A stretch of 64,000 nucleotides of DNA from Okibacterium sp. HSC-33S16 (GTDB lineage Bacteria > Actinomycetota > Actinomycetes > Actinomycetales > Microbacteriaceae), in NCBI RefSeq assembly GCF_024171565.1, contig NZ_JALJZZ010000001.1, positions 310,001 to 374,000 of the forward strand. Reading direction: 5' to 3'. Position 1 is the first letter of the stretch. Each line of letters starts with the position of its first letter. The notes beneath the pieces were generated by a model. The model was not told the origin of the DNA. It searched no databases and worked only from the letters and a program-made list of their open reading frames with translations. The position numbers and the translations under genes were made by a program. Shown here piece by piece: positions 7,928 to 42,995 of the stretch.

Positions 7928-8146
7928 AAATCAATCACTGCGTAACACTACTACTGCGGTTACAACCGTAGCCCAGAGGTCCGCTCAAAGCAAGGCCGAG
8001 TTTCGAGACACTGTGTATATGCCGAAATACGAGTCATTTTCCACTAATGGAATGGACTCTCCCGTAGTCTCGGACCATCCTGGGCATATGCCCGATTTTC
8101 AACTCTCACGGCTGGGAAGTCGAGCTTAACCCTTTTTGGAGGTGCC
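7928..8146. other. Divergent intergenic region, csp / desaturase
   Basis: With the csp leader this forms a 330-bp gap. It should hold the csp promoter (minus strand) and the desaturase promoter (plus strand). A 12-bp perfect palindrome GGGCATATGCCC is at 8082-8093, about 54 bp before the desaturase start, and could be a regulator site. No open frame with a ribosome-binding site is visible. Confidence 0.5.
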
Positions 8147-10694: not shown

Positions 10695-10708
10695 GAGAGG
10701 AGCTCAAC

Positions 10709-11644: not shown

Positions 11645-12543
11645 CCACAGTCGAGCTGCCGCCGGAAGCACGCGTCGCCGAGTCACGCCCACAGGTGCCA
11701 CACCGGCCGGGCGAAAAGCGTTTCGGCGCGGGCCGGGTCATTGCCCTCATCATTCTCATTGTCATGGCCGTCTCGTGGCTGCTTCCCTTCGCCTGGGCAC
11801 TGGTCACCTCGCTTAAGACCGAAGCGGATGCCGGCGCGACGCCGGTCAGCTGGCTCGCGCCGCACGGTTACACACTCGAGGCGTACGCCAACGTCCTGGC
11901 CGAGGGAAATATCCCAATTTGGGCGCTCAACAGCCTGTTGAGTTCGACGATTATCACCATTCTCACGGTGGCGACGTGTGCGTTGGCCGCCTACGCGTTT
12001 TCTCGACTGGACTTCACCGGTCGCAGGTGGCTGTTCTTCGTCGTCATCGCTTCCATCATCATTCCGCCGCAGGTACTGATCATCCCGTTGTTCTACGAGA
12101 TGCTCGCGTTCAACATGGTTGACACCTATTGGGGCCTGATCCTCCCACAGGTCGTTGCGCCGCCGATGGTGTTCATTCTGAAAAAGTTCTTCGACCAGAT
12201 TCCGATCGAACTTGAGGATGCCGCTCGAGTTGATGGGGCGAATCGCCTTCGGATCTTCTGGACGATTGTGTTGCCCCTGTCCCGTCCGATCCTTTCCGCC
12301 GTATCAATTTTCGTTTTCATCGGAGCCTGGAACAACTTCCTCTGGCCGTTCATCATCATCAACGACACCTCGCTGATGACCCTTCCCGTCGGGCTGCAGA
12401 CGGTCAAGAGCGCATACGGCGTGCAATACGCACAGAACATGGCCATGGCGCTCCTCGCAGCGGCGCCCTTGATCATCATCTTCCTCTTCTTCCAGAGGCA
12501 GATCATCAAGGGGATCGCGACGACTGGCTTTGGTGGCCAGTAG
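11641..12543 (+). CDS. Sugar ABC transporter permease, MalG/UgpE type
   Basis: The 300-residue partner permease has six predicted transmembrane segments and the EAA loop IELEDAARVDGANRLRIF near residues 190-210. The ATG at 11641 is preferred over an in-frame start at 10966, because the upstream extension is a shadow of the first permease and the ATGA overlap is the usual operon junction. No ATPase gene is present in the operon. The importer presumably borrows a shared MsmK/MalK-type ATPase encoded elsewhere, as known for other CUT1 systems. Confidence 0.92.
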   Translation: MTTVELPPEARVAESRPQVPHRPGEKRFGAGRVIALIILIVMAVSWLLPFAWALVTSLKTEADAGATPVSWLAPHGYTLEAYANVLAEGNIPIWALNSLLSSTIITILTVATCALAAYAFSRLDFTGRRWLFFVVIASIIIPPQVLIIPLFYEMLAFNMVDTYWGLILPQVVAPPMVFILKKFFDQIPIELEDAARVDGANRLRIFWTIVLPLSRPILSAVSIFVFIGAWNNFLWPFIIINDTSLMTLPVGLQTVKSAYGVQYAQNMAMALLAAAPLIIIFLFFQRQIIKGIATTGFGGQ

Positions 12544-12568
12544 TTCAGACGAGCGAGAAACGGACACG

Positions 12569-23356: not shown

Positions 23357-25093
23357 CTACAGGCGGGTACCGAAGGTGTCGCACCAGACGTTGTCGTTGA
23401 ACGTTCCGGTGAAGCCGGACGTGCCCGTCATTTTCGCAACAGTGGCCGCGATCGCTTCGCGGCTGGGCGCATAGGAATGAATGACGGTCTTCACCATCGG
23501 CACATCGATCAGGTGATTGGGCTGAGCCAGGGAGACGAAGATCGTGGGAATCTCGGTCACATACCAGGGAATCTCGGCTGCCATCGGCGTCGACCAGTGA
23601 ATCCGCACCGTCGCCTCCTGCGCGAAGCCGGTGACGTTGGCGAAAATGATGGCTGCGTCGTACTTCTCGGCGTATTGTTCGTTCGCCTCGTCGGCCATCA
23701 CCGTGTGGAAGTACACCCCTTCCTCGCCGTCGGCCTTGCGCTGGACGGCGTCGCGGAACACGTGCACCTCAAAGCCGGCGTTCTCCAACTCCTGCCTGGC
23801 GATGTCGAGAAACCCGCTCGGGTCTGTGCCGGTGAAATCGGCCTGGCCAGAAATGCCGTACAACCGAATTCGCTTGTGGGTCTGTGGAGACAACGGCAGG
23901 TTGTTCTGGGTGTCCTTGACGAGGGTGACGTTCTTGTCGGCAACGGCCGCCGCGATGGCCAGGTGCTCCTCGCTTCCGATCACGTCGAGCGCTTCCGGGC
24001 CCGGGACAAGTTGGTCGCGCGGGATCGTGTGCAGGCCGATGGAGGCCTTCAGCCCCAGGATTCGAAGGAGCGCGTCGCGAAGTCGTTCCTCGGTGATGAC
24101 GCCCGAGCGGTAGCCCTCGAGCATGTAACGGAAGTCTTCGTCGGCGTTGCGGAAGAAGAGGAACATATCGCAGCCTGCAGCGATCGCCGCTGGCACCAGA
24201 TCCTTGCGCTTCATGGCCTGGGTCATACCGATCATGGCTGAGGCGTCGGTGAGGATGAGCCCGTTGAAGTTCAGTTCTCCTCGCAACAGGTCCTGGAGAA
24301 GTTCAGGGGCAAGGGTGGCGGGCATGATCTCGGAATCGGCGATGCCGGGACGGAAACGGCGCGACAGCTCCGGCGCACCGATGTGGCCGACCAGGATCGA
24401 CTGCACGCCGTGATCGATCAGCTCGCGGTATACCCGACCGTAGGTCGAGTTCCACTCGTCGTACCCGAGCGTGTTATACGTGGTGACCACATGCTGGTCT
24501 CGTTCGTCCATGCCGTCGCCGGGAAAGTGCTTCATGGCGGCAGTGGATCCGGTCTCACTGAGCCCGTCAAAGTAGGCCTTGGCCCGCTCGATCACGACAT
24601 CGGGGGTGTTCCCGAACGACCGGGTGCCGATCACCGTGTTACGCCAGTTGTAGTGGATGTCAACGATGGGAGCGAACGCCCAGTTGCAGCCCAGGGCTGC
24701 CGTTTCACGCCCGCCTACGTAGCCGAGGTCGCGTGCGATGGAGGCATCGGGGTGGCTGCCGGCGCCGAGGTGGGTGGTGACCAGGGTCCCATCGTTGATG
24801 CTGCCCGCTCCGCCCATCTCGGGGTTGGATGCGATGAGCAGCGGAACCTTGGACTTCGACTGCGCGTAGCGGATGTGGCTCTGCACGGTCGCGGAATCAG
24901 CACCCATGTAGCGCATCCCGCCCACATGGAAGTTGTCGAGAACGTTGTCGAGATAGCTCGGCTCAAACGAGGTGTTGAGGTTAATGAAGAGCTGACCGAT
25001 CTTTTCCTCAATCGAGAGTGAGGCAAGCGTCGTTTCGACCCACTCGACGCCAGCGGCGTCAAGGTTAAACGGGTGTGCTGTCAGATCGACCAT
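23357..25093 (-). CDS. Glycoside hydrolase family 3 enzyme (NagZ-like)
   Basis: The 578-residue protein has the GH3 TIM-barrel with KHFPGDGMDERDQH from residue 188, the His/Asp acid-base loop typical of NagZ-type enzymes. The nucleophile is Asp283 in LILTDASAM. A C-terminal alpha/beta domain follows (about 400-578). There is no signal peptide, so it acts in the cytoplasm on imported sugars. AAGGA precedes the ATG at 25093. A LacI-type operator (25171-25190) lies between it and the divergent isomerase gene. That links it to the uronate regulon rather than to cell-wall recycling. The actual substrate is unknown. Confidence 0.88.
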   Translation of the reverse strand: MVDLTAHPFNLDAAGVEWVETTLASLSIEEKIGQLFINLNTSFEPSYLDNVLDNFHVGGMRYMGADSATVQSHIRYAQSKSKVPLLIASNPEMGGAGSINDGTLVTTHLGAGSHPDASIARDLGYVGGRETAALGCNWAFAPIVDIHYNWRNTVIGTRSFGNTPDVVIERAKAYFDGLSETGSTAAMKHFPGDGMDERDQHVVTTYNTLGYDEWNSTYGRVYRELIDHGVQSILVGHIGAPELSRRFRPGIADSEIMPATLAPELLQDLLRGELNFNGLILTDASAMIGMTQAMKRKDLVPAAIAAGCDMFLFFRNADEDFRYMLEGYRSGVITEERLRDALLRILGLKASIGLHTIPRDQLVPGPEALDVIGSEEHLAIAAAVADKNVTLVKDTQNNLPLSPQTHKRIRLYGISGQADFTGTDPSGFLDIARQELENAGFEVHVFRDAVQRKADGEEGVYFHTVMADEANEQYAEKYDAAIIFANVTGFAQEATVRIHWSTPMAAEIPWYVTEIPTIFVSLAQPNHLIDVPMVKTVIHSYAPSREAIAATVAKMTGTSGFTGTFNDNVWCDTFGTRL

Positions 25094-25170
25094 GGGACGT
25101 CCTTGTTCTCGGGAAAAACGGGCGCGACTGTGCATCCGTCGCACTCCTATGAGACACCGCGGAGCGCAGT

Positions 25171-25190
25171 TTTGTCAACCGGTTGCCAAA
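25171..25190. promoter_or_regulatory. LacI-type operator, GH3 / isomerase divergent promoter
   Basis: TTGTCAACCGGTTGCCAA is an almost perfect palindrome with central CCGG. On the plus strand TTGCCA (25183-25188) and TAGAGT (25207-25212) make an 18-bp-spaced promoter for the isomerase operon. On the minus strand TTGACA within the same site is a -35 for the GH3 gene. A bound repressor would block both. Confidence 0.78.
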
Positions 25191-25282: not shown

Positions 25283-26137
25283 ATGACGATCGGAACCGAC
25301 ACAGTTACCTGGACCCTCTCCGGCTTCGGCGATGAGATCGATACTGACCCGCGAATACAGATCGCCGTCCTCAAGGCGCTCGGCAGCGAACACATCGAGG
25401 TTCGCAGCGCGTGGGGCACCAACGTCGTCGACCTGGATGATGACCAGCTGGCTGCGCTCGCCACGCTTCTCTCCTCCGAAGGGATGAAGGCTTCCGCGGT
25501 CGCGTCGCCGATCGGCAAGGTCGACGTTTCACTCGACGCCGACCTCGAGGTCGCCCGTCTTCGCCGAATCATCAGAGTGGCTCACGCGCTGAACACTCCG
25601 AACATCCGTATCTTCTCCTTCTTTCGTGCCGAGGGCGTGCCCGTCGCCGACATCCGCGACGACGTGATGACTCGAATGCGCCTTCTCGCTGACGAGGCGG
25701 AACGCGAGGGCGTCGTTCTCCTCCACGAGAACGAGAAGGACATCTACGGCGACACTCCGGAGCGTGTCCTCGACCTCGTCGAGTCGGTCGGGTCGAGCGC
25801 ACTTCGACTTGCCTGGGACAGCGCCAACTTCGTTCAGGTCGGTGTCACCCACCCGCATGATGCGGGCTACGCCATGCTCCGCCCCTACCTCGATTACCTG
25901 CAGATTAAGGACGCGGATGCCGCGAGCGGCTCGGTCGTTCCTGCCGGCCAGGGTGACGGCCAGGTGTTGGCCACCCTCACCGCGCTTCGTGACGATGGCT
26001 ACACCGGTTTCGCTTCGTTGGAGCCGCACCTCGATGAAGCTCACACGCTGGGCGGCTTCTCCGGCCCGACCGCATTCGGCCAGGCCGCTCGCGCATTCGA
26101 CGGACTGCTGCGCAGCATTGGAGTGTCCACCAAGTGA
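25283..26137 (+). CDS. Sugar phosphate isomerase/epimerase family (TIM barrel)
   Basis: The 284-residue xylose isomerase-like TIM-barrel protein has candidate metal-site segments LLHENEKDIYGD, RLAWDSANFVQVG, YLQIKDAD and FASLEPHL, at the strand ends where this family places Glu, Asp, His and Glu ligands. It is the first of three genes joined by 4-bp overlaps, followed by two Gfo/Idh/MocA oxidoreductases. That trio recurs in pathways that epimerise or 3-oxidise sugars or glycosides. The exact reaction cannot be read from sequence. Confidence 0.85.
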   Translation: MTIGTDTVTWTLSGFGDEIDTDPRIQIAVLKALGSEHIEVRSAWGTNVVDLDDDQLAALATLLSSEGMKASAVASPIGKVDVSLDADLEVARLRRIIRVAHALNTPNIRIFSFFRAEGVPVADIRDDVMTRMRLLADEAEREGVVLLHENEKDIYGDTPERVLDLVESVGSSALRLAWDSANFVQVGVTHPHDAGYAMLRPYLDYLQIKDADAASGSVVPAGQGDGQVLATLTALRDDGYTGFASLEPHLDEAHTLGGFSGPTAFGQAARAFDGLLRSIGVSTK

Positions 26138-28380: not shown

Positions 28381-28469
28381 CGCCGTGTCACGCGCCGCCT
28401 ACTGGTCGCCCGAGGGGCAATCGATTGCATAGCTGGTTTACGGGGTTGTGACGTCACTTTGTAACTATT

Positions 28470-28487
28470 TTGACAATCGGTTGCCAA
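28470..28487. promoter_or_regulatory. LacI-type operator O1 and promoter of the ABC importer
   Basis: TTGACAATCGGTTGCCAA matches the repeated operator. Its first six bases are a consensus -35 (TTGACA), with a -10-like CAAGAT at 28493-28498 after 17 bp. Repressor binding would cover the -35 element. Confidence 0.75.
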
Positions 28488-28544
28488 ATGACAAGATGCC
28501 GATTAGTGTGGTCCCCAGATCGGAAGCCAAGCGTCACTCAGATA

Positions 28545-28594: not shown

Positions 28595-30121
28595 ATGAAG
28601 TTTGGTCCCCGTGCGACGTCCGTCGCCATCGTCGCCGCGACAGCCGTCGCCCTCGTCGGATGCTCCTCAGCAGCCGGCGGAAAATCCGGCGGCGGTTCAG
28701 CCGTAGACACACTGTCAATCGGTTCCCTCTCGAACATCCTGTCCTTCGATCCGGCCCAAGCGCACCTGGGCCACCAGATGCCGCTGTACCAGGCCGCGTA
28801 CGACACCCTGGTTCTGCGCAAGCCCGATGGATCGTTCGCTCCAATGCTCGCTACCGAGTGGGAGTACAACGACGACCAGACCGTCCTCACCGTCGACCTC
28901 CGCGATGACGTCACGTTTACCGACGGCGAGAAGTTCGATGCGGAAGCAGCGAAGGCGAACCTCGATCACTTCAAGAGTGCAAACGGACCTGACGCTGCGC
29001 AACTGGGGTCGGTCAGCGCCGTGGACGTCGTCGACGAAGACACCATCGACATCACGCTCGCAGCAGCAGACCCCGCACTCGTGTATTACCTCAGCCAGGC
29101 CCCCGGCCTCATGGGCAGCCCGAAGGCGCTCGGAACCGAGGAGATCAAGACGGTTCCCGTGGGATCCGGCCCCTATGTCCTCGACGCCAAGAGCTCGGTC
29201 AACGGCTCGCAATTCGTCTACACGGCCAACGAGGACTACTGGAACAAGGATCTTCAGAAGTTCGCAAAGGTCACCATCAAGGTCCTCACCGACATCACGG
29301 CGCGAACCAACGCCGTCGTGTCCGGGCAGGTCAACGCCACACTGCTTGACGCAAAGAACGGCAAGCAGGCTGAAGGTGCCGGTCTCAAGGAAGTCTCGTA
29401 CCCCGTTGACTGGAACGGCCTCTTCCTCTTCGACCGCGACGGGCAGAACACGCCAGCACTCGGCGACGTCCGCGTCCGCCAGGCCATCAACTACGCCTTC
29501 GACCGCGAAACCATGCTCGAGCAGCTCTCGCTCGGACACGGAGAAGTCACCGCGCAGATCTTCGGCAAGACGACTGATGCCTATATCCCGGAACTTGACG
29601 ACGCATACGCGTACGACCCCGAGAAAGCCAAGTCGCTCCTCGCCGAAGCCGGATACGCCGATGGCTTTGAGTTGACCCTCCCGGTCCTGCCCGGCACAGA
29701 GGCCATCATGGCAATGGTGCAGCAGCAGCTTGCCGACGTCGGGATCACCGTCAAGCAGGAAGCCGTTCCCCAGGCCAACTACGTCACCGACCTCCAGGCA
29801 GCCAAGTTCTCGGCAGCATGGTTCTCCGTCTTCCAGGGCGAGCCGTGGGTTGCAATCAAGCAGGCGATTGGCCCGCAGGCCGCATACAACCCGTTCAAGA
29901 CGACAACTCCTGAACTCCAGGCAGCAATCGATGCCGTCCAAACGGGCGGCGACAAGAGCGGCGAACTGGCGAAGGACGTCAACGAGTACGTGACCGAGCA
30001 GGCCTGGTTTGCTCCGTGGTACCGCATCGACCAGATGTTCTACATCGACGACAAGATCACCGTTGAGCCTCAAGCCCAGCAGGCAGTGCCGAGCATCTAC
30101 AACTACGCTCCGGCATCCTGA
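28595..30121 (+). CDS. Dpp/Opp-type ABC transporter substrate-binding lipoprotein
   Basis: The 508-residue family 5 solute-binding protein has a lipoprotein signal with Cys23 (ALVGC). The mature part contains YDTLVLRKPDGSFAPMLATEW and LRDDVTFTDGEKFDAEA, the family-5 signature region. The ATG at 28595 is set by AAGGAG (28583-28588), and upstream in-frame codons are discarded. Family 5 proteins bind peptides but in several bacteria also oligosaccharides. The two upstream operators and uronate genes around it favour a glycoside substrate here. Confidence 0.9.
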   Translation: MKFGPRATSVAIVAATAVALVGCSSAAGGKSGGGSAVDTLSIGSLSNILSFDPAQAHLGHQMPLYQAAYDTLVLRKPDGSFAPMLATEWEYNDDQTVLTVDLRDDVTFTDGEKFDAEAAKANLDHFKSANGPDAAQLGSVSAVDVVDEDTIDITLAAADPALVYYLSQAPGLMGSPKALGTEEIKTVPVGSGPYVLDAKSSVNGSQFVYTANEDYWNKDLQKFAKVTIKVLTDITARTNAVVSGQVNATLLDAKNGKQAEGAGLKEVSYPVDWNGLFLFDRDGQNTPALGDVRVRQAINYAFDRETMLEQLSLGHGEVTAQIFGKTTDAYIPELDDAYAYDPEKAKSLLAEAGYADGFELTLPVLPGTEAIMAMVQQQLADVGITVKQEAVPQANYVTDLQAAKFSAAWFSVFQGEPWVAIKQAIGPQAAYNPFKTTTPELQAAIDAVQTGGDKSGELAKDVNEYVTEQAWFAPWYRIDQMFYIDDKITVEPQAQQAVPSIYNYAPAS

Positions 30122-30203
30122 CCCACCGCCAGGGGGAGGGGCAGCACGCGCCCTTCCCCTGGCGTCACACCACCGCGAATTACATCAACACCGGAATGAG
30201 ACC

Positions 30204-31145
30204 ATGGTCACCTTCATCCTGAAGCGGATCGGATCGGGACTTGTCGTACTCGCGGCGATCTCCTGCCTGACCTTCTTCCTCCTGTACTTCTCAAGCACGA
30301 ACATCGCCCGCAATATCCTCGGCGAGTACGCAACACCCGAGCAGGTCGCTGCCAAGCAGTCCGAACTCGGGCTCGACCAGCCCATCCTCACCCGCTTTGC
30401 AACGTGGGTGGGCAACGCCCTCACCGGCGACTTCGGGACCTCATGGTTCACCAACGAACCCGTCGTCCAGTCGCTTCTGACCCGACTTCCGGTCACCCTC
30501 GCACTCGTTGTTACCTCCATCCTGATCATCGCCGTCCTGTCGACACTCATCGGCGTTGCTGCCGCGGTGAAGCGGGGATGGATCGACCGCGTCGTGCAGA
30601 CCGCCGCGGTCATCGGAGACGCGATTCCCAACTTCGTCCTCGCGATCGTCTTCGTCACGATTTTCGCCATTCAGCTCGGGTTCTTCCCGGCCACAAGCAG
30701 CATCCAGCCCGGCGCAGACGCCGGAGCCTGGGTCGCTTCCCTCACCCTTCCGGTAATCGCCCTCGTGATCAGTGGGCTGACCAGTGCTGCCCAACAGGTT
30801 CGAAGCGCCGTCATCAAGCAGCTCGAAAAGGACTACGTGAGGACGCTCCGCAGCCGCGGCATCTCTGAAGGCGTGATCCTCTTCAAACACGTTTTGCGCA
30901 GCGCTGCGCCGGCCGGTCTCACCGTGTTGAGCCTTCAGTTCATCGGAATGCTCGGCGGTGTCGTCATCATCGAGCAGATCTTCGCCCTCCCCGGGATGGG
31001 CGCCCTCGCCGTTCAGTCGACCACCCTCGGGGATACCCCCCTCGTGATGGGCGTCGTGCTCTACACGGTCATCATCGTCATCATCGTCAACCTGCTCGTG
31101 GACCTCGCGAACGGCTGGCTCAACCCCAAGGTGCGTGTCTCATGA
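30204..31145 (+). CDS. ABC transporter permease, DppB/OppB type
   Basis: The 313-residue membrane protein has an N-terminal transmembrane helix, the LGLDQPILTRFATWVGNALTGDFGTSW segment and five further helices typical of DppB. The coupling segment VRTLRSRGISEGVILFKHVLRSAAP lies near residues 212-236. The ATG at 30204 is the first that preserves the DppB N terminus; an earlier in-frame start at 30009 lies inside the binding-protein gene. The next gene overlaps by 4 bp. Confidence 0.92.
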   Translation: MVTFILKRIGSGLVVLAAISCLTFFLLYFSSTNIARNILGEYATPEQVAAKQSELGLDQPILTRFATWVGNALTGDFGTSWFTNEPVVQSLLTRLPVTLALVVTSILIIAVLSTLIGVAAAVKRGWIDRVVQTAAVIGDAIPNFVLAIVFVTIFAIQLGFFPATSSIQPGADAGAWVASLTLPVIALVISGLTSAAQQVRSAVIKQLEKDYVRTLRSRGISEGVILFKHVLRSAAPAGLTVLSLQFIGMLGGVVIIEQIFALPGMGALAVQSTTLGDTPLVMGVVLYTVIIVIIVNLLVDLANGWLNPKVRVS

Positions 31146-32953
31146 GCGAACCCGTTGAAATCAAGGCAAGTACGGCCACTCTGGCCAGGACAAACGTCTT
31201 CAAGCGCATACTCAAGAACCCCCTGGGCATCTTCGCGGTCGCCGTTCTCACGATCATGGTTCTCGTGGCCATTTTCGCGGGCTGGATCGCCCCCTTTGGT
31301 GAGAACGCCGCCAACATCGGCAAGACCCTGTCAGGGGCCGACTCGGTCAACCTGCTCGGAACCGACAGCGCCGGCCGAGACACCTTCAGCCGCCTGGTTT
31401 ACGGTGCCCAAACGACGCTGCTGTCGGCGCTACTCTGTGCAGCGGTCGCCATTGCGATTGGGCTGCCAGCTGGCCTCATCGCCGGCTACTACTCCGGTCC
31501 GTTCGACTCCGCTGCGAACTGGGTCGTCAACGTCCTGATGGCGCTGCCCGGCATCATCGTCCTGCTCACCATCCGCGCGGCCTTCGGACCGTCGGTGTGG
31601 ATCTCGATGATCGCATTCGGCATCCTCATCAGCCCCGGCTATTTCCGCCTCACCCGGACCGCCGTGCAGTCGGTGCGCAACGAACTGTATGTTGACGCCG
31701 CCCGGGTCTCCGGACTGAGCGACGCTCGAATCATCACCCGCCACATCTTCTCGGTGGTGCGCGCACCGATCATCATCCAGACGGCCATCGTCTGTGGTGT
31801 CGCAATCAGCATCCAATCAGGACTGGAATTCCTTGGACTCGGTGACCCGACGGTCGCGACCTGGGGCGTCATGCTGAGCGAGGGGTTCAAGAACGTCTAC
31901 CTCGCTCCCACGCTGCTGCTCTGGCCGGCTCTCGCCATTGGCCTCGCGGTCGGCTCGCTCGTGCTCCTCGGCAACGCCGTGCGCGATGCCCTCGAGGACC
32001 GTGAGAAGGTCACGGTCTCCAAGCGCAACGACCCGCCAACGGTTGCCCTGCAGATGCAGCGCGGTCCGCGGAAGAAGAAGGCGGCGAATGTCGAGGTCGG
32101 TACCGAGAAGCACCTCGTCAAGGTGTCACACCTCGCCATCGGTTACCCGCAGGCGAACGGGACTCTGAAGCCCGTCGTGAACGATGTCTCCTTCACGGTC
32201 GACCGAGGTGAAGTGCTGGGGATCGTCGGCGAGTCCGGATCCGGTAAGTCACAGACCGCCTTCTCCATCCTCGGGCTGCTCCCGCCGGAAGCGCGGATCA
32301 TGTCCGGCAGCATCCAGTTCGACGGTGAGTACACCGTTGAGCCGGGGGAGGACACCGTAAACCAGGGCCGCCTCTCCGCGCTCCGCGGGAAGCGCATCTC
32401 CTACATTCCGCAGGAGCCGATGTCGAACCTCGACCCGGCATACACGATCGGTTCCCAGCTCGTCGCTCCGATGGTGACCGTGCTGGGCATTTCGAAGGCG
32501 GAAGCCAAGAAACGTGCACTCAAACTGTTGTCCGACGTCGGCATCGTCGACCCGGCGCGCACCTTCGGCGCGTACCCGCACGAGGTCTCCGGCGGAATGG
32601 CGCAGCGCGTACTCATCGCGGGTGCGATCAGCTGTGAGCCGGACCTCATCATTGCCGACGAGCCGACAACCGCGCTCGACGTGACCGTGCAGGCAGAAGT
32701 GCTGGATCTCATCCGTGACCTTCAAAAACGACTCGGTGTCGGTGTCATCCTTGTGACCCACAACTTCGGCGTCGTTGCTGACCTCTGCGACCGTGTCGTC
32801 GTCATGCAGGCCGGTCGCCTCGTCGAGGGCGGACAGGTGCGCGAGATTCTCGGCGCGCCGCAGGACCCGTACACGATCACCCTCCTCGACTCCATGCTCG
32901 AGAACAAGAAGCCCATGACGATGCTCGTCAGCCAGGGAGGAACCACATCATGA
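31142..32953 (+). CDS. Fused permease-ATPase (DppC-DppD) of the ABC importer
   Basis: The 603-residue protein joins two subunits. Residues 1 to about 285 are a DppC-type permease with a cytoplasmic N terminus, GTDSAGRDTFSRLVYGA and the coupling loop YVDAARVSGLSDARIITRHIF. After a basic linker (about 290-325) comes a DppD-type ATPase. It has Walker A GESGSGKSQT near 363, signature VSGGMAQR near 482 and Walker B LIIADEPTTALD near 501. Such fusions occur in actinobacteria. The open frame is continuous with no sign of an assembly artefact. It overlaps both neighbours by 4 bp. Confidence 0.93.
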   Translation: MSEPVEIKASTATLARTNVFKRILKNPLGIFAVAVLTIMVLVAIFAGWIAPFGENAANIGKTLSGADSVNLLGTDSAGRDTFSRLVYGAQTTLLSALLCAAVAIAIGLPAGLIAGYYSGPFDSAANWVVNVLMALPGIIVLLTIRAAFGPSVWISMIAFGILISPGYFRLTRTAVQSVRNELYVDAARVSGLSDARIITRHIFSVVRAPIIIQTAIVCGVAISIQSGLEFLGLGDPTVATWGVMLSEGFKNVYLAPTLLLWPALAIGLAVGSLVLLGNAVRDALEDREKVTVSKRNDPPTVALQMQRGPRKKKAANVEVGTEKHLVKVSHLAIGYPQANGTLKPVVNDVSFTVDRGEVLGIVGESGSGKSQTAFSILGLLPPEARIMSGSIQFDGEYTVEPGEDTVNQGRLSALRGKRISYIPQEPMSNLDPAYTIGSQLVAPMVTVLGISKAEAKKRALKLLSDVGIVDPARTFGAYPHEVSGGMAQRVLIAGAISCEPDLIIADEPTTALDVTVQAEVLDLIRDLQKRLGVGVILVTHNFGVVADLCDRVVVMQAGRLVEGGQVREILGAPQDPYTITLLDSMLENKKPMTMLVSQGGTTS

Positions 32954-33825
32954 CCGGTGCATTTCAGGACGACTTGCTCGTCGTCGACGACCTCGTTGTG
33001 GAGTACCCCAGCAAGGGCTTCCGCAAGAAACCGTTCCGTGCACTTACCGACGTGTCGATCCGTATCGGGCAGGGCGAGACCCTCGGTCTTGTGGGGGAGT
33101 CGGGCTCCGGCAAGACGACCCTGGGCCGTGCCGTGCTCGGCCTGGCCCCGGTCACCGCCGGAACCATCACGTTCGAGGGCGAAGACATCAGCCATGCGAG
33201 CCGCAAGCACCGGCAAAAGCTGAGCCGTGACCTGCAGGTGGTGTTCCAGGACCCGTATACCTCGCTCAACCCGGCCATGGAGATCGGCGACATCCTGGCT
33301 GAGCCGCTCACCATCCAGGGCATCGGGCCCACCGAGTCGAAGGCACGGGTCAAGGAGCTGCTCGACCACGTCAACCTGCCCTCCGACGCGTTGCACCGCC
33401 AGCCCCGTGAGTTCTCGGGCGGCCAGCGCCAGCGGGTGGCCATCGCCCGGGCGCTCGCCCTGTCGCCCAAGCTCATCGTCTGCGACGAGCCGGTATCTGC
33501 GCTCGACCTCACCACACAGGCCCGCGTGCTCGACCTGTTCCTGCAGATTCAGCAGGACACCGGCGTCTCCTATCTGTTCGTCTCACACGACCTCGACGTG
33601 GTGCGGCACATCAGCCACCGAGTCGCCGTCATGTACCACGGCGAGATTGTCGAGCAGGGGCCGGCGGCGCAGGTCACTGTCTCCCCCGAGCACCCGTACA
33701 CGCAGCGCTTGCTGCTCGCATCGCCGGTGCCGGATCCTGACCGCCAGGAGGAGCGCCGGGCCAACCGTCGGCGCCTACTCGACGAGCAACGCGCCTCGGC
33801 CGAGCTCGCCGCGGCGGGGGCGTGA
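32950..33825 (+). CDS. ABC transporter ATPase, DppF/OppF type
   Basis: The 291-residue ATPase has Walker A GESGSGKTTLGR near residues 50-61, QVVFQDPYTSLNP, signature FSGGQRQR near 156 and Walker B LIVCDEPVSALD near 177. The C-terminal EHPYTQRLLLASPVPDP motif is typical of Opp/Dpp ATPases. It is the last gene of the importer operon, 81 bp before the LacI gene, so the regulator may be partly cotranscribed. Confidence 0.94.
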   Translation: MTGAFQDDLLVVDDLVVEYPSKGFRKKPFRALTDVSIRIGQGETLGLVGESGSGKTTLGRAVLGLAPVTAGTITFEGEDISHASRKHRQKLSRDLQVVFQDPYTSLNPAMEIGDILAEPLTIQGIGPTESKARVKELLDHVNLPSDALHRQPREFSGGQRQRVAIARALALSPKLIVCDEPVSALDLTTQARVLDLFLQIQQDTGVSYLFVSHDLDVVRHISHRVAVMYHGEIVEQGPAAQVTVSPEHPYTQRLLLASPVPDPDRQEERRANRRRLLDEQRASAELAAAGA

Positions 33826-33906
33826 GTGCCGTGCCGTGCGATAGCGTAAGAGCAATACGGGCCGGTCGAACGGCCACGCGCGATGCGCACGCCCAGAGGA
33901 GATACC

Positions 33907-34989
33907 GTGTCGAGTGAGAGCGTCGAGGAGCACGCCACCAACGTCGTGCCCAAAGCGCGAACGGCCGCGCGGGGCGGGCGTCCAGCGAAGACAGCGCCGA
34001 CCATTTATGACGTCGCCGAGCTGGCTGGGGTGAACCCGTCAACCGTGTCTCGCGCACTGAGCCAGCCCGGTCGCATCAACATCAAGACCGAAGAGCGCAT
34101 CCACGCCGCAGCCAAGACGCTCAACTATCGGCTCAACCCGATGGCTCGGGCGCTGCCGACCGGTCGCACCAGCACCCTCGGCCTGCTGCTCGCTGACATC
34201 ACCAACCCGATGATCTTCGGCATCGTCCGTGGTGCCGAGCACGCTGCCGCTGAGCAGGGCTATACCCTGGTCATCGCCGAATCGCAGGAGTCGGGGGAGC
34301 GTGAGGCGTCAACGGCTCAACGCATCCAGCCCTCGGTTGACGGCCTCATTCTTGGCACCACCCGACTGAGCGACACGCAGATCCAGGAGCTCGCGACGAA
34401 CAAGCCGCTCGTTCTCATCAACCGAGACGTCGAGGGAGTCGCCAGTGTGCTGCCCGACGTCAACCCGGGGATCGACGGGGCGCTCGCGCACCTTGAATCG
34501 CTCGGACACCATTCGATCGCCTACCTCTCGGGCCCGGCCAACTCGTGGATGAGCGGCACCCGCTGGGCAAGCCTGCTCGAACGTGCCGTCGCGCGCGGCA
34601 TGAACGTCGTCGAGATCGGGCCCGGTGTGCCGACCCTCGACGGCGGCCGCGCCGCGCTGACCCGTGTGCTTGCTTCCGGCGTCACGGCGGTGGTCGCATA
34701 CAACGACCTGATGGCGATTGGCCTGCTCCAGGCCGCGGGCGATGAAGGCATCTCGGTGCCCGATCGCTTCAGTCTCGTCGGCTTTGACGACATCTTCGGT
34801 TCTGATTTCACCACGCCGGCCCTCACGACGATTCGCACGCCGCTCGCCCGGGCGGGTGCCCGCGCGGTCCGCCACGCCCTCGCGCTGGTGAGCGGAACAG
34901 CCGACGAATCGTCGACCGCTGCCGACAACGACGAAAAAATTGAAACCGAGCTTGTCATTCGGCAATCGACGGGGCCTGCGGCCTCTTAA
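33907..34989 (+). CDS. LacI family transcriptional regulator
   Basis: The 360-residue protein has a 30-residue basic tail and then the LacI helix-turn-helix TIYDVAELAGVNPSTVSRAL (about 32-51). The hinge region YRLNPMARAL follows. The rest is a periplasmic-binding-protein-like effector domain starting TLGLLLADITNPMIFGI. I chose GTG 33907 over ATG 33883 because AGAGGAGA lies 5 nt upstream of it. It is the only LacI-type regulator in the window and sits in the middle of five promoter regions sharing one palindromic operator. It is therefore the likely repressor of the uronate regulon. No operator is visible before its own gene. Confidence 0.93.
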   Translation: MSSESVEEHATNVVPKARTAARGGRPAKTAPTIYDVAELAGVNPSTVSRALSQPGRINIKTEERIHAAAKTLNYRLNPMARALPTGRTSTLGLLLADITNPMIFGIVRGAEHAAAEQGYTLVIAESQESGEREASTAQRIQPSVDGLILGTTRLSDTQIQELATNKPLVLINRDVEGVASVLPDVNPGIDGALAHLESLGHHSIAYLSGPANSWMSGTRWASLLERAVARGMNVVEIGPGVPTLDGGRAALTRVLASGVTAVVAYNDLMAIGLLQAAGDEGISVPDRFSLVGFDDIFGSDFTTPALTTIRTPLARAGARAVRHALALVSGTADESSTAADNDEKIETELVIRQSTGPAAS

Positions 34990-36021: not shown

Positions 36022-36082
36022 TGTGGGAGTCGGTGAAGATTCCCTACGGTGTTGCCCTCAGTCTGTCATGAGGTTACGATGT

Positions 36083-36100
36083 TTGGCAACCGGTTGACAA
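36083..36100. promoter_or_regulatory. LacI-type operator, isomerase / uxaC divergent promoter
   Basis: TTGGCAACCGGTTGACAA is a near-perfect palindrome. On the plus strand TTGACA (36094-36099) is a consensus -35, with AAGATT (36117-36122) 17 bp downstream as the uxaC -10. On the minus strand TTGCCA, 18 bp and CAGACT form a promoter for the isomerase. Both -35 elements are inside the operator. Confidence 0.78.
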
Positions 36101-36142
36101 CGATATCGCAGCCGACAAGATTATCCATATGAAGGTGTGTCA

Positions 36143-37555
36143 ATGAAGCTGCAACTCGATCCAGACCGGCTCTTTCCGGTCGACCCCTCCACGCGCTCGA
36201 TCGCCCGTGCCCTGTACGAGCAGGTGGAGAGCCTGCCGATCATTTCGCCGCACGGTCACGTCGACCCGGCAATCCTCGTCGAGGACCAGCAGTTCCCCGA
36301 CCCCGCTGAGTTGTTCATCCGCTATGACCACTACGTCACCCGGCTCATGCACGCGGCCGGCATCGACCTCGACCGGCTGGGCATTCCGAACCGCACGACA
36401 GGGAAGCCGGCGGCCTCCCCGCGTGAGGTGTGGCGCACCTTCAGCGAGAACTGGCACCTCTACGCCGGAACGGCGTCGGGCTATTGGTTGCAGTCGACGT
36501 TCGCGCAGATCTTCGGGATCGACGTCCAGCCGAGCGCTGACAACGCCGACGCCGTCTATGACACGATCCAGAGCGCCCTCGATACCGACGCGTTTCGCCC
36601 GCGCGCCCTGTTCGAGCGGTTCAACATCGAAGTTCTCGCCACCACTGACGACCCGATGGACTCGCTGGCGCCGCACCAGGCGCTCGCCGCTGACCCGACG
36701 TTCTCGGGTCGCGTGCTCCCGACGTTCCGCCCAGACGCCTACCTCAATCCGGCAACCCCGGGCTGGGTAGACAAGGTGGCAGCACTCGCCGACTGGAACG
36801 GTTCCGCCGTGGGCAGCTACGCCGGCTACGTCGAGGCGCTCACCGGTCGCCGCCGATACTTCGTCGAGAATGGTGCGGTTTCGGCCGACCACGGCGTACT
36901 CCAGCCGCTCGCGGTTGACCTCGACCCGGCCGAAGCGGCAGCCCTGTTCGCCAAGGGCCTCGCCGGAAACCTCTCCGACGCCGAGTCGCGCGCCTTCGCC
37001 GGTCACATGCTGCTCGAGAGCGCACGCATGAGCACCGAAGACGGACTCGTCATGACCGTGCACCCGGGCGTCTACCGCAACCACTCGAGCGAGACCTTCG
37101 CGACGTTCGGCCCCGACACCGGCCACGACATCCCGGTCACAACGACCTACGTCGAGAACCTGCGCCCGTTGCTCGAGAAATACGGCAACAACGCCGACTT
37201 CCACCTCGTCCTGTTCAGTGTCGACGAGACGGTGTACTCACGCGAAGTGGCACCGCTCGCTGGCTTCTACCCGAGCGTGTACATCGGTGCACCGTGGTGG
37301 TTCCTCGACGCTCCCGACTCCGTCCTCCGCTTCCGCTCGGCCGTCACCGAAACCGCGGGCTTCTACCGCAGCTCCGGCTTCATCGACGACACCCGGGCGT
37401 TCCTCTCCATTCCGGCTCGCCACGACATGGCTCGCCGCCTCGACTCCGCGTTCCTCGCCCGACTCGTTCGTGAAGGACGCATCGACGAACAGGCCGCTGG
37501 CCGAATCAACGTCGACCTCGTCGACTCGATGCCTCGAAAGGTCTTCAAACTGTGA
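36143..37555 (+). CDS. uxaC: Glucuronate isomerase
   Basis: UxaC interconverts D-glucuronate and D-fructuronate (or galacturonate and tagaturonate). The 470-residue amidohydrolase-fold protein shows LPIISPHGHVDP with the metal His pair, FIRYDHYVTRLMHAAGID, the ATTDDPMDSL strand and VMTVHPGVYRNHS. WWFLDAPDSVLRFR near the C terminus is family-typical. The ATG at 36143 has GAAGGTG about 7 nt upstream; the GTG two codons earlier is too close to it. It overlaps uxuB by 4 bp. Confidence 0.94.
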   Translation: MKLQLDPDRLFPVDPSTRSIARALYEQVESLPIISPHGHVDPAILVEDQQFPDPAELFIRYDHYVTRLMHAAGIDLDRLGIPNRTTGKPAASPREVWRTFSENWHLYAGTASGYWLQSTFAQIFGIDVQPSADNADAVYDTIQSALDTDAFRPRALFERFNIEVLATTDDPMDSLAPHQALAADPTFSGRVLPTFRPDAYLNPATPGWVDKVAALADWNGSAVGSYAGYVEALTGRRRYFVENGAVSADHGVLQPLAVDLDPAEAAALFAKGLAGNLSDAESRAFAGHMLLESARMSTEDGLVMTVHPGVYRNHSSETFATFGPDTGHDIPVTTTYVENLRPLLEKYGNNADFHLVLFSVDETVYSREVAPLAGFYPSVYIGAPWWFLDAPDSVLRFRSAVTETAGFYRSSGFIDDTRAFLSIPARHDMARRLDSAFLARLVREGRIDEQAAGRINVDLVDSMPRKVFKL

Positions 37556-38979
37556 CGAACACCGCTTCCGCTCCCCGTCCGCTCAACCGCTCCACATTCG
37601 CCAATTCGAATCGAGCGGATGCTTCGCGGGGCATCCGCATCGTCCACGTCGGTCTCGGCGCTTTTTCGCGTGCGCACCAGGCCTGGTACACCGAGGTCGT
37701 TGACGAAACGGGGGAGTGGGGGATCGCTGCCTTCACCGGTCGGAACGCAACGGCGGCCAATGAACTCGCCCCGCAGGACGGGTTGTTCACGCTGATCGAG
37801 CGCTCGGCTGCTGGCGACTCCGCAACGATTGTCTCGAGCATCGTTGAGGCCGTCGACGGCGCCAATCTCAACCGTTTTGTCGAGCTCCTTGCCGCGGCAC
37901 CCACCGCACTCGTGACGCTCACCGTCACCGAGGCGGGCTACCGGCTGACTGCGAACGGCGAGCCCAACCGCGACGATGCCGCAGTGAACCACGACATCGA
38001 CTGGCTCAGCTCGGCGCTCGGTGACAACCTTGACGAATCGTTCGACGGTGGACCCGTCACGACACTCGGGCGCCTCGTCCTCGGTCTTCACGTCCGGCGA
38101 CTCGCCGGTGCTGGCCCGCTTGCCATCGTGCCGTGCGACAACATGCCCGACAATGGCCCGTTCGTGAAGTCGGGGATTCTCGCGCTCGCCCGGCTGGCGA
38201 ACGCTGAGACCGCGAGCTGGATCGCAGGCAACGTGTCCTTCGTGTCCACGTCGGTTGACCGCATCACGCCCAAGACCACAGCGGCCGACAGTGAAACGGC
38301 CGCAGCGCTCACCGGCTTCGCTGACCGTGCTCCTGTCGTCACCGAGCCCTTCCGCGACTGGGTGCTCTCCGGGGATTTCCCGGCCGGCCGCCCCGCATGG
38401 GAGAAGGCCGGCGCCCGGTTCGTCGACGAAATTGAACCGTTCGAGCGACGCAAACTGTGGCTGCTCAACGGCGCGCACAGCCTGCTGGCCTACGCCGGTC
38501 GACTGCGCGGCCATGAGACGGTCGCCTCAGCCATCACGGACGCAGTATGCCTGACCTGGGTGAACGAGTATTGGGACGCGGCCTGCGCCCACCTCGGCGA
38601 GGACCTTGACCTCGACGCCTACCGCGCGGCGCTTCTCGACCGGTTCGAGAATGCCCGCATTGAGCACCGCCTGGCCCAGATCGGCATGGAGGGAGTGACC
38701 AAGCTCCGCGTCCGTGCTGCTCCGATCATCCTCGCCGAGCGCGCCGCTGGGCGCACGGGCCAAGCGCCGATCCGGGCGATCGGCTCCTGGGCAGCGTTGG
38801 TGATGTCTGGAGCCGATCTGGCTGATGCTGCGGCCGACGGCATCGCCGCCGCTCTCGCGTCAGGCGGGGATGTGCTCACTGAGCTCGTGCGCCTCATCGA
38901 TCCGCGGCTTGCGGAGGATGCGTCGGTGCTTGCCGGCATCCGTTCGGTTGCCACCGAATCGTTGCCGACTCACGCATAA
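37552..38979 (+). CDS. uxuB: Fructuronate reductase (mannitol dehydrogenase family)
   Basis: The 475-residue long-chain dehydrogenase would reduce fructuronate to mannonate with NADH. VHVGLGAFSRAHQAWYTEV is the nucleotide-binding region. The catalytic motif K-x4-N-x2-H (KLWLLNGAHSLLAYAG) is near residues 301-316. FVSTSVDRITP is also typical of the family. The start overlaps the uxaC stop (GTGA), so product hand-off is expected. A mannitol or altronate dehydrogenase is a weaker alternative, but UxaC and the mannonate dehydratase nearby favour fructuronate. Confidence 0.9.
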   Translation: MTNTASAPRPLNRSTFANSNRADASRGIRIVHVGLGAFSRAHQAWYTEVVDETGEWGIAAFTGRNATAANELAPQDGLFTLIERSAAGDSATIVSSIVEAVDGANLNRFVELLAAAPTALVTLTVTEAGYRLTANGEPNRDDAAVNHDIDWLSSALGDNLDESFDGGPVTTLGRLVLGLHVRRLAGAGPLAIVPCDNMPDNGPFVKSGILALARLANAETASWIAGNVSFVSTSVDRITPKTTAADSETAAALTGFADRAPVVTEPFRDWVLSGDFPAGRPAWEKAGARFVDEIEPFERRKLWLLNGAHSLLAYAGRLRGHETVASAITDAVCLTWVNEYWDAACAHLGEDLDLDAYRAALLDRFENARIEHRLAQIGMEGVTKLRVRAAPIILAERAAGRTGQAPIRAIGSWAALVMSGADLADAAADGIAAALASGGDVLTELVRLIDPRLAEDASVLAGIRSVATESLPTHA

Positions 38980-39022
38980 TTCCGGGGCGGAACCTCTCGA
39001 ACCGAGAGGTTCCGCTCTTATT

Positions 39023-39040
39023 TTGGCAACCGTTTGCCAA
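39023..39040. promoter_or_regulatory. LacI-type operator before the sugar importer operon
   Basis: TTGGCAACCGTTTGCCAA matches the shared operator with one change in the centre. TTGCCA (39034-39039) with TTGAAT (39057-39062) at 17-bp spacing forms the promoter, so the operator covers the -35 element. It controls the 64-aa gene, the importer and probably the downstream genes. Confidence 0.77.
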
Positions 39041-39146
39041 ATGCCCAAAATCGTGCTTGAATGTACTTCATCAGGTCGCAGGCTTTCCCGTCTGCTCCAC
39101 ATATTTCGCAAGGACGCGGTTCGCAACGACGCGTAAGGAGACACCC

Positions 39147-39341
39147 ATGACGGCACTGTCCGCACACCTGTCCCTGCCGCTCGTTGCCATACCCTCGACC
39201 TCGCACCGGCGCGTTTCTGACGCCGACTTCTTCGGCAACTCCGCCCGTATGGCGAGCACCAGAACTGGTGGAGTTGCCGGATTCCTCGACAGGGCGCTGT
39301 GCTCTGCCTTCCTCGTATTCACATCATCGGAAGAGCAGTAG
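39147..39341 (+). CDS. Small hypothetical protein, first gene after the operator
   Basis: The 64-residue product has an Ala/Ser/Thr/Arg-rich composition and one moderately hydrophobic C-terminal patch (FLDRALCSAFLVF). I recognise no domain. Support for translation is good: TAAGGAGA lies 7-8 nt before the ATG, it is the first start codon after the regulated promoter, and it ends 33 bp before the transporter ATG. It may be a leader peptide, a small transporter partner or a fortuitous frame. Confidence 0.5.
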   Translation: MTALSAHLSLPLVAIPSTSHRRVSDADFFGNSARMASTRTGGVAGFLDRALCSAFLVFTSSEEQ

Positions 39342-39374: not shown

Positions 39375-40825
39375 ATGACAACCTCGGCCACCGAGGCGCC
39401 CCAAGCGGCGCTTGGCAAGCTGCCGAAGATCAGCATCATCGGCTACGGTGCCGGCGACGCGGCGAACAATCTGGCGTTCACGACCGCCACGATGTTCCTG
39501 CTGATCTATTACACCGACGTTGCGGGTATTTCCGCCGCTGCGGCTGGAACCCTGCTGCTCGTCGTTCGCGTTTTCGACGCCTTCGCCGACTTGCTGGCTG
39601 GCCGAATTGTTGACCGCAGCTACAGCAAGCGCTTCGGAAAGTTCCGCCCCTTCCTCATGTTTGGTTCGGTTCCGCTCCTGCTTTTGAGCGTTGCGACCTT
39701 CTCGATCCCGCAGATCGGCGAGACCGGCATGCTGATCTACGCGTACCTCACCTACGCGGCCCTCGGCCTGGCATACAGCCTCGTCAACATCCCGTTCGGG
39801 TCACTCGCTGGCGCTATGACGCAGGATCCCAGTGAGCGGGCCAAGCTCGCGAGCGCTCGCACCATTGGCGCGATGATCGTGGGCGCCGGCCTCGGCATCT
39901 TCGTTGCACCGCTGATCACCCCCGAAAACGACCTGCAGTCGATCTTCACGTTCATGACCCTCGGCTTCGTGGTCGTCGGAACTGCGCTCTACTTCTTCAC
40001 GGCCTTCACCGCGAAAGAGCGTGTGCGGCGCGATGTTCCTCACGTCACCATGAAGCAGAGCTTCGCCATCCTGAAGAGCAACAAACCGCTCGTCATGCTC
40101 TGCATCAGCTCGTTCGTGTTCCTCACTGGAATGCTCGCGCTCAGCACAGTTCAGCTGTATTACCTGCGCGACGTCCTCCACGCGCTTCCGCTCTACGCGG
40201 TCTTCTCTATCCTTCAGCTGGTCATCACCTTTGGCCTCGCGGGCTTCGTGCCCAAGATCGTCCGCACTTTGGTAAGCGGGCTGCATACATGGTGGGCGGC
40301 GGGATTATGGGCTTCGGTGGCCTCATCGTCTTCCTCGCACCGCCGAGCATGGTGTGGTTGGGCTTCACCGGATTGGTCGTCGCGCAGCTCGGAATTGTCC
40401 TCGTCAACATGCTGGTGTGGGCGCTGGAGGCCGACACGGTCGAGTACGGCGAGTGGAAGACCGGTGTTCGTGCCGAGGGCATCGTCTACGCGCTCTTCTC
40501 CTTCACGCGCAAAACCGGACAGGCCGTCGGTGGCGCTCTCGCCGCATACGCCCTCGCTTGGGGCGGTTACGTCTCCGGCGGTGCCGTTCAGTCGGTCCAG
40601 GCCGAGTGGGGCATCCGCGCCGGCGCTGGCCTGATCCCCGTCGCCGCAGCGGTCATCGCAATCGCCATCATGATCTTCTACCCGCTGACCGACAAGAAGC
40701 ACAAAGAAATCGTCGCTGAAATCGCCGAACGCCGCCTCACCCGCGGCTCGGCAGCGCCGATGGACCCGTCGCTCTCCACTGCGGCATTCATCGTCAACCG
40801 CGCACAAAGCACTCCCACCGAATAA
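39375..40825 (+). pseudogene. GPH-family sugar/glucuronide importer, broken by a frameshift
   Basis: The gene encodes a major-facilitator-type glycoside-pentoside-hexuronide:cation symporter of about 480 residues. The first 300 residues (SIIGYGAGDAANNL, VRVFDAFADLLAGRIVDRS, RFGKFRPFLMFG) are read in one frame and the rest (MGFGGLIVFLAPPS, ALEADTVEYGEWKTGVRAEG) in the -1 frame. The switch is at about 40268-40272, where restoring one base would give the expected GKR motif after VRT. Without it the protein ends at 40634 with a nonsense tail. It could be a true mutation or a sequencing error. Its place between the operator and mannonate dehydratase suggests glucuronide or uronate uptake. Confidence 0.88.
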
Positions 40826-40874: not shown

Positions 40875-42113
40875 ATGAAAATCGAAAAAGCTGAAGTCAT
40901 CGTCACGAGCCCTGACCGCAACTTCGTCACACTTAAGCTCACCACCGAAGACGGAGTCACCGGTCTCGGCGACGCAACCCTGAACGGTCGTGAACTGGCC
41001 GTCGTGTCCTACCTCACCGAACACGTCGTACCGCTGCTGATCGGTCGCGAAGCACACAACATCGAGGACACCTGGCAGTTCCTGTACCGCAGCGCGTACT
41101 GGCGTCGCGGACCGGTCACGATGGCTGCCATCGCTGCGGTCGACGTCGCGCTCTGGGACATCAAGGCCAAGGTTGCCGGCATGCCGCTGTACCAGCTTCT
41201 CGGCGGCGCTTCGCGTACCGGCCTCATGGCATACGGTCACGCCTCGGGCAAGACCCTGCCCGAATTGTTCGACAGCGTGCGCGAGCACCAGGAAAAGGGC
41301 TACAAGTCCATTCGTATCCAGACCGGCGTCCCCGGCCTCAAGTCGATCTACGGCATTGCGTCGAACGCGACGTTCGAAGCCAACAAGGGCGTTCGCTACG
41401 ACCACGAGCCCGCCCAGCGCGGTGCACTGCCCAACGAGGAAGACTGGGACACCCGCAGCTACCTGCGCCACGTACCCACCGTGTTCGAGGCCGTGCGCAA
41501 CGAGTTTGGCCCCGAGATCCCGCTCCTTCACGATGGTCACCACCGTATGACGCCGATCCAGGCCGCGAAGCTGGGCAAGTCCCTCGAGCCGTACGACCTG
41601 TTCTGGCTTGAAGACTGCACACCGGCCGAGAACCCTGAGGCCCTTCGTCTGGTTCGCCAGCACACCACGACGCCACTGGCGATCGGCGAGATCTTCAACA
41701 CGGTCTGGGACTACCAGCAGATCATCCGCGAGCAGCTCATTGACTACGTGCGCAGCGCCGTGACGCACACTGGTGGAATCTCGCACCTCAAGAAGGTGCT
41801 CGACTATGCCGCGCAGTACCAGATCAAGTCGGGCATGCACGGACCGACCGATATCTCGCCGGTTGGTATGGCTGCAGCCATGCACTTGGGCATGTCCATC
41901 CACAACTTCGGAATTCAGGAGTACATGCAGCACGGCGAGAAGACCAACAGCGTCTTCGAGCAGTCCTTCACCTGGAATGACGGAATGCTGCACCCGGGCA
42001 ACAAGCCGGGTCTCGGCGTTGAGCTCAACGTCGACGAAGCAGGCAAGTATCCGTACGCCACGGCTTACCTGCCCTACAACCGTCTCGCCGACGGTACCGT
42101 CCACGACTGGTAG
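40875..42113 (+). CDS. Mannonate dehydratase-like enolase superfamily protein
   Basis: The 412-residue protein is a mandelate racemase/enolase-type enzyme of the ManD (RspA) group, which dehydrates D-mannonate to 2-keto-3-deoxy-D-gluconate. [22 protein letters not shown] is the superfamily signature. The three metal ligands are in [11 protein letters not shown] (Asp), [10 protein letters not shown] (Glu) and [11 protein letters not shown] (Glu). [12 protein letters not shown] and [10 protein letters not shown] are ManD-specific in character. Some ManD-type proteins are very slow on mannonate or act on gluconate, so the exact substrate is not certain. UxaC and UxuB nearby make mannonate the best guess. 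Confidence 0.88.
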
Positions 42114-42130: not shown

Positions 42131-42670
42131 ATGTCAGTGAACACCACAGTTCCCGAGGGCACACAGATTGTCGTGATGGGGGTGTCGGCGTCGGGGAAGA
42201 GCACGATCGGGGCGCTCATTGCCGGTGCCCTCGGGGTCCCCTTTGTCGATGGAGACGCACTGCACCCGCAGTCCAACATCGAGAAAATGGCGGGCGGACA
42301 TCCGCTGAATGATGACGACCGTTGGCCGTGGCTCGCCATCGTCGGGGAAACCCTGGCGACGGCGGGTGCGGCCGGCACCGGTATGGTCATCGCCTGCTCG
42401 GCGCTCCGCCGAGGCTACCGCCAGGCGATCATCGACAACGCGCCGGAGGTGCGATTCATCCACCTTGACGGCAGCCGGGAAGTACTCGCTGCTCGGATCG
42501 AGGGACGCAGCGATCACTTCATGCCGCCCAGCCTGCTCGATTCGCAGTTTGCGACCCTCGAGCCCCTCGCCGAGGACGAGCCGGGGATCGTTGTCAACAT
42601 CGACCAGACGGTTGCGGCCATTGTCGCTGAAGCGGTCGAAGCCATCACCGGGAATCAGAACGCCGCCTAG
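42131..42670 (+). CDS. gntK: Gluconokinase
   Basis: The 179-residue P-loop kinase phosphorylates D-gluconate to 6-phosphogluconate. The Walker A is GVSASGKST near residues 14-22. FVDGDALHPQSNIEKMAGGHPLNDDDRWPWL is the hallmark of GntK, and ACSALRRGYR and HFMPPSLLDSQFATLE complete the family pattern. It lies 17 bp after the mannonate dehydratase gene, so is probably cotranscribed. Its product feeds gnd at 22 kb. Confidence 0.95.
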   Translation: MSVNTTVPEGTQIVVMGVSASGKSTIGALIAGALGVPFVDGDALHPQSNIEKMAGGHPLNDDDRWPWLAIVGETLATAGAAGTGMVIACSALRRGYRQAIIDNAPEVRFIHLDGSREVLAARIEGRSDHFMPPSLLDSQFATLEPLAEDEPGIVVNIDQTVAAIVAEAVEAITGNQNAA

Positions 42671-42911
42671 GTCTCGAGTCGAGCGATGTCGCGGTGACCG
42701 GACCGCTGTCGAGCCGCGTGCCGTGATTCCCGCCTCGCCACTGAACGATGCCTCGCGCGGCATGCTGTAGACTCGACGATTGAACTTCGGCGAGGGATGC
42801 TGCCTGCTTACGCAATCTGCGGCATCCGTTATCGACGCGGTGGGCAAGGCATCCACTTTTCTTACCCAAGAACTGGCTTTTCCTCACGCTGACATGCGTT
42901 CGAGTTGATTC
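42671..42911 (+). other. Intergenic region upstream of rplY
   Basis: The first 240 bp of a 325-bp gap carry no gene I can support. There is an inverted repeat GGATGC / GCATCC around 42794-42829 that may end the gntK transcript. The promoter of rplY should lie in the distal half. Confidence 0.4.
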
Positions 42912-42980
42912 GTAGCCGGTCATCCGGCTACCCAGACCACACGGAGCACCGCTCCGGTAAGCGAAAGAGCTGCAAAGCTC
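42912..42980 (+). promoter_or_regulatory. Three-hairpin leader of the L25 gene
   Basis: Three consecutive perfect stems precede rplY: an 8-bp stem (42912-42919 with 42924-42931), a 6-bp stem (42942-42947 with 42951-42956) and a 5-bp stem (42967-42971 with 42976-42980). The last ends just before the Shine-Dalgarno. Ribosomal protein genes often carry autoregulatory leaders. Whether L25 binds this one is inference. Confidence 0.45.
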
Positions 42981-42995
42981 ACCAAAGGAGAAACC

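Follow-up and report, generated by a model that had tools for sequence, protein, structure and literature searches.

A one-base frame break in the putative GPH importer gene of a glucuronate operon in Okibacterium sp. HSC-33S16: probably a recent indel, possibly a sequencing error

In Okibacterium sp. HSC-33S16, the gene for a GPH-family importer within a glucuronate operon changes reading frame part of the way through, which raises the question of whether the strain carries a real mutation, whether the assembled sequence is in error, or whether a working carrier is made across the break. The window analyzed here is a stretch of 64,000 nucleotides (positions 310,001 to 374,000 of contig NZ_JALJZZ010000001.1, forward strand), coordinates are those of the window unless a contig is given, and the features concerned are collected in Table 1. 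The open-reading frame at 39375-40634 (+) encodes 419 aa that are GPH-like to residue ~298, followed by 121 unrelated residues. The Pfam profile MFS_2 (427 positions) is matched at 1-284 by the first part and at 286-427 by the second part, read in the -1 frame; the glucuronide transporter model of NCBIfam is divided alike, with 4-289 in the first part and 291-449 in the second. The full-length MFS_2 match expected of the family is present, though spread over two frames, and the single continuous frame expected for a whole carrier is interrupted after residue ~298. Compared to the gene of Mycetocola zhadangensis, protein identity was 91.6% over the first 297 codons and 87.6% over the 185 codons of the -1-frame part, as against 26% over 95 aligned codons in the frame actually read past the break. 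Nucleotide alignment of the two genes over a 160-base stretch at the site contained a single one-base gap, adjoining an FGKR motif that is present in this nearest orthologue; the missing base can be placed only to within about 8 bases, and the longest homopolymer at the site is three T (TTT). This stretch occurs once in the genome assembly from which the window itself was taken, and the base is hence not independently confirmed by it. The frame of the GPH gene is confirmed to be broken in this assembly. The initial annotation had placed a -1 frame change at about 40268-40272, and translation, both profiles and the nucleotide alignment agree with it on place and direction; its descriptions of two conserved halves that adjoin without loss and of a GKR motif restored by one added base accord with the profile coverage and identities and with the position of the gap, respectively.

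Table 1 Features of the window discussed in the text
Feature	Coordinates	Strand	Basis
Operator-like site between GH3 gene (-, 23357-25144) and xylose-isomerase-like gene (+, 25283-26137)	25171..25190	.	Pattern match
Operator-like site upstream of likely start of ABC solute-binding protein gene (28595)	28469..28488	.	Pattern match
Opp-type ABC importer: family 5 binding protein, two permease genes (second fused to ATPase), ATPase	28595..33825	+	
LacI-family regulator, candidate operator reader (inferred from place)	33883..34989	+	
Operator-like site upstream of uxaC	36082..36101	.	Pattern match
Glucuronate isomerase UxaC	36137..37555	+	Over curated cut-off
Mannitol dehydrogenase / fructuronate reductase family oxidoreductase	37552..38979	+	Below curated cut-offs
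Palindromic LacI-type operator-like site upstream of GPH gene	39022..39041	.	0 mismatches; source of search pattern
N-terminal part of GPH (MFS_2) importer, in frame, residues 1-298	39375..40268	+	ORF translation; MFS_2 and NCBIfam profile matches
Net loss of one base compared with intact relatives; which base is ambiguous	40265..40272	+	Sequence and alignment
C-terminal importer part, -1 frame; holds ORF from ATG 40289 (178 aa)	40268..40825	+	Profile match, alignment
Out-of-frame ORF tail, 121 codons and stop	40269..40634	+	26% identity in that frame
D-mannonate dehydratase ManD	40875..42113	+	Over curated cut-off
Gluconokinase, GntK/IdnK type	42131..42670	+	Over curated cut-off of TIGR01313

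The operon runs in the order uxaC, fructuronate-reductase-like gene, GPH gene, manD, gntK, and the GPH gene is best explained as a hexuronate or glucuronide symporter of this glucuronate catabolic operon, with a putative transport role. At up to 3 mismatches, the operator-like pattern matched 4 times in the window against 0.01 expected, and all four sites were found in M. zhadangensis, where the one upstream of the GPH gene has 1 mismatch. A slightly looser pattern, allowed one mismatch across the whole genome, was found in five places, namely the four window sites and one on contig 4 (C4:135946-135965) upstream of a gene that we take, from its sequence, to be aldose-epimerase-like. We read the four palindrome copies as marking a local uronate/glycoside regulon; the ABC importer and the GPH gene appear to form one regulon, and the LacI regulator, whose gene sits between the ABC and uxaC genes, is a candidate reader of the sites. 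A leader ORF between the operator and the GPH gene (39147-39341) gave no Pfam match, the translation of that region is only 45% identical to M. zhadangensis, and the region was taken as non-coding. A tRNA scan of the window added nothing. Elsewhere in the window, a cluster with a binding protein, a permease, and an arabinofuranosidase-like gene (9348-14104) has no counterpart at the same place in M. zhadangensis.

Comparison with close relatives, which the initial annotation had proposed as a check, was made by a scan of genome contigs that gave 37 named loci, M. zhadangensis (ZD1-4) included. The genome used for M. zhadangensis was assigned to that species because the gene sequence of its named locus, L005, recurs there without a difference. 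The frame is unbroken through the site in 35 of the 37, M. zhadangensis among them, as expected of a frameshift pseudogene whose break is absent from close relatives. The two exceptions are L039, on a contig that ends before the site, and L040 from Microbacterium elymi, which is by eye in frame at the site and broken elsewhere in the gene. A further draw of 199 genomes of the family yielded 9 strong matches at E 1e-60 or lower, one of them the window's own. Open frames in the remaining 8, some of which may duplicate species among the 37 named relatives, span 489-570 aa and lack internal stops, compared to 430 aa here. UxaC together with a close GPH orthologue was found in two of six genomes of the genus, the present genome and M. 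zhadangensis, and a search for a second isolate of the same species found none. Judged from these sequences, the frame break is private to the present genome among those seen. As a separate observation, the GPH gene of Microbacterium elymi KUDC0405, a complete genome, has by eye three frame breaks (L040:8001-9487, at ~8259, 8671, and 9148), each at a CCTG-like four-base tandem, and these may be an assembly artefact; the frequency of such tandems in L040, 5 in 16.9 kb, is only mildly above the 91 in 561 kb counted over 35 other loci.

A working carrier could in principle be made across the break, either by a -1 ribosome slip or by translation of the C-terminal part from ATG 40289 and its joining to the N-terminal part. 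The second part does form an open frame that extends from ahead of the break as far as the natural stop, with an ATG at 40289, and other MFS carriers can function as two co-expressed pieces. None of the 35 unbroken relatives needs a shift, however, so that no conserved shift site was found among the orthologues. Slippery heptamers follow the rule X XXY YYZ, and by eye none is present at the site, which reads CGC ACT TTG GTA in frame; the downstream RNA (68 nt) folds no better than shuffled sequences (z -0.44). With relatives in frame and neither heptamer nor structure at the site, programmed frameshifting was rejected. A separate start at ATG 40289 is preceded, by eye, by no strong Shine-Dalgarno sequence, and the break falls after about helix 8 rather than between the two helix bundles. 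Recoding or a split carrier is, given these results, highly improbable, and we consider it still less credible that the break is real and that the strain nevertheless makes a working carrier at a reduced importer dose, whether by translating two pieces separately or through non-canonical -1 slippage at a low level.

The age of the break was approached by comparing the two parts of the gene. Nucleotide difference from M. zhadangensis was 18.2% before the break and 19.8% after it, and dN/dS was 0.061 and 0.095, respectively (NG86 values, as YN00 gave numerical errors for most genes). Among 11 comparison genes, NG86 dN/dS was 0.025-0.091 for nine, 0.013 for manD, and 0.193 for rplY, so that the C-terminal part slightly exceeds 10 of the 11; relaxed selection past the break, as an old pseudogene would show, was not found at this value. 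At columns invariant in ten orthologues, 247 of 250 are unchanged in the window gene, and the three alterations (2 of 174 in the N-terminal part, 1 of 76 in the C-terminal part) are all conservative. Amino-acid changes unique to the window gene were not in excess of those unique to M. zhadangensis with four of five outgroups in either part; the fifth gave 9 versus 7 in the C-terminal part (L006) and 9 versus 8 in the N-terminal part (L010). Together, these results suggest that selection acted on the gene until very recently, or acts on it still, and, since both halves are about as conserved as neighboring genes and 247 of 250 columns are kept, that the break is either very recent or not real. 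The word "recent" in the initial annotation of a loss is in this respect supported by dN/dS and by the nearly unchanged invariant columns.

An older pseudogene in the course of being lost, its function having been replaced by the ABC system, would be consistent with the unbroken ABC genes and the operator-like site of matching type close to them, and with a dN/dS for the C-terminal part slightly over most comparison genes. Apart from the break, however, the GPH gene is free of stops and shifts, its private amino-acid changes are not clearly in excess, and the closest relative, M. zhadangensis, retains the ABC system alongside an intact GPH gene, so we regard such an older loss as extremely improbable. 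With both retained in M. zhadangensis, the ABC and GPH importers are probably not redundant. A takeover of uptake by the ABC system from the broken GPH importer is a plausible guess; its solute-binding protein belongs to family 5, and the substrate is not readable from its matches. One of the permease domains is fused to an ATPase domain in a single 603-aa protein (31142-32953). Other importers were sought in the genome among MFS_2 relatives, of which the two best were followed; weaker matches over the cut-off also exist. The best of these (C2:577739-579016, 254 bits, in a 460-aa frame) was rejected as a close paralogue that might serve as a replacement, its identity to the N-terminal part being only 26% (residues 24-205), and the ORFs of the 4.3 kb examined included no recognizable uronate gene. 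The other, at C2:158532-159638, contains two TGA codons and was considered as a broken gene; by eye the MFS frame closes at a TGA located at about position 2028 of L059 and is followed by a separate sugar-hydrolase-like gene, and the match was taken as unbroken.

Whether the break is a mutation or an error depends in part on how often such breaks occur in this assembly, which comprises 3.23 Mb in 10 contigs with a stated completeness of 100. ORFs of M. zhadangensis with a counterpart of at least 60% identity were compared to the matching stretches of the present genome, giving 409 ORFs over ~564 kb of the 3.23 Mb (153 from contig 1, 0-200 kb; 214 from 400-700 kb; 42 from the window), chosen mechanically, so that shadow ORFs may be among them. 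Five of the 409 were flagged, and the known GPH break was detected. Flags at window 8013-8126, window 42911-42994, and contig 1 ~501185-501316 were judged from their N-terminal place to be 5′ extensions, and a flag at contig 1 ~695196-695934 was judged on inspection to be an antisense shadow of a + strand ORF, leaving the GPH gene, in our judgment, as the only one broken within its body; on this basis the idea of an assembly rich in frameshifts was rejected. The reverse survey, with ORFs of the present genome placed on M. zhadangensis, flagged 0 of 155 (0-200 kb), 1 of 44 (window), and 4 of 208 (400-700 kb), all but one of the five flags lying at the N-terminus. One 740-aa ORF that is whole here (contig 1 ~688026-690248) has a counterpart in M. 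zhadangensis (contig 1 ~693815) that seems to shift frame after residue ~166.

A consensus or sequencing error, under which the living strain would have an intact gene and a working importer, is a possibility to be taken seriously, although we hold it to be the less probable explanation. It agrees with purifying selection on both halves close to that on neighboring genes, with conserved columns that are almost untouched, and with the intact and conserved operator-like site upstream; the absence of relaxed selection fits a one-off consensus error as well as a very recent indel, and this counts against a real mutation. Similarity-validated singleton frame transitions are, in the treatment of singletons by Antonov et al. 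2013 (PMC3711429), expected to reflect errors of sequencing and not genuine indels. Against an error stand the survey, with no other break judged intragenic among 409 comparable ORFs over ~564 kb, and the site itself, where a run of three T is not that of a typical homopolymer error. Because the surveyed assembly has no other intragenic break and no run at the site is longer than TTT, we favor a recent real one-base indel, natural or arisen in culture, with a probability of about 0.62. Recent loss and sequencing error, the two alternatives of the initial annotation, thus remain the right pair, a conserved programmed shift being opposed by the relatives, and the choice between them now leans to the real indel.

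If the indel is real, a recent single-base deletion, natural or from culture, would have put the second half of the GPH gene out of frame. Alignment of the intact orthologue with MelB places the break near the loop before helix 9, which we take to mean after about helix 8 with the last four helices lost; the predicted product would lack the C-terminal third of the carrier, roughly those last four membrane helices, and would presumably not transport. The enzymes of the operon would stay usable if substrate enters otherwise, for example through the unbroken ABC importer with its similar operator. Translation past the shift ends 240 bases ahead of manD, and expression of manD and gntK may be subject to a polar effect. 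A real indel would mean that an importer has been lost while the catabolic operon, the operator, and a second importer remain, and growth on glucuronate or glucuronides, compared between this strain and M. zhadangensis, would then help to tell the cargo of each importer. If the break is an error, the gene should not be labeled a pseudogene in annotation. In both cases the event is commonplace and its explanation ordinary.

Like the singleton frameshifted genes of Antonov et al. (PMC3711429), the present gene has a transition private to one genome and protein similarity that validates both sides, and no feature was found that separates this case from them. The melibiose carrier MelB (PDB 4m64 and others) is a distant relative; its alignment with the intact orthologue from M. 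zhadangensis covers residues 22-471 of 485 (126 bits, E 2.4e-35); since the gene sits in a uronate operon, its substrate probably differs from that of MelB. Nearer to the carrier are the GPH:cation symporters (TIGR00792), whose cut-off the N-terminal part alone exceeds (251.1 vs 231.35 bits), and the glucuronide transporter type NF007353, which we take to be UidB/GusB of E. coli and which is the top NCBIfam match for both halves (382 and 194.9 bits, scored separately, neither half alone reaching the cut-off of 528 bits). The present gene resembles these systems in its glucuronate operon context and differs from them by one frame break.
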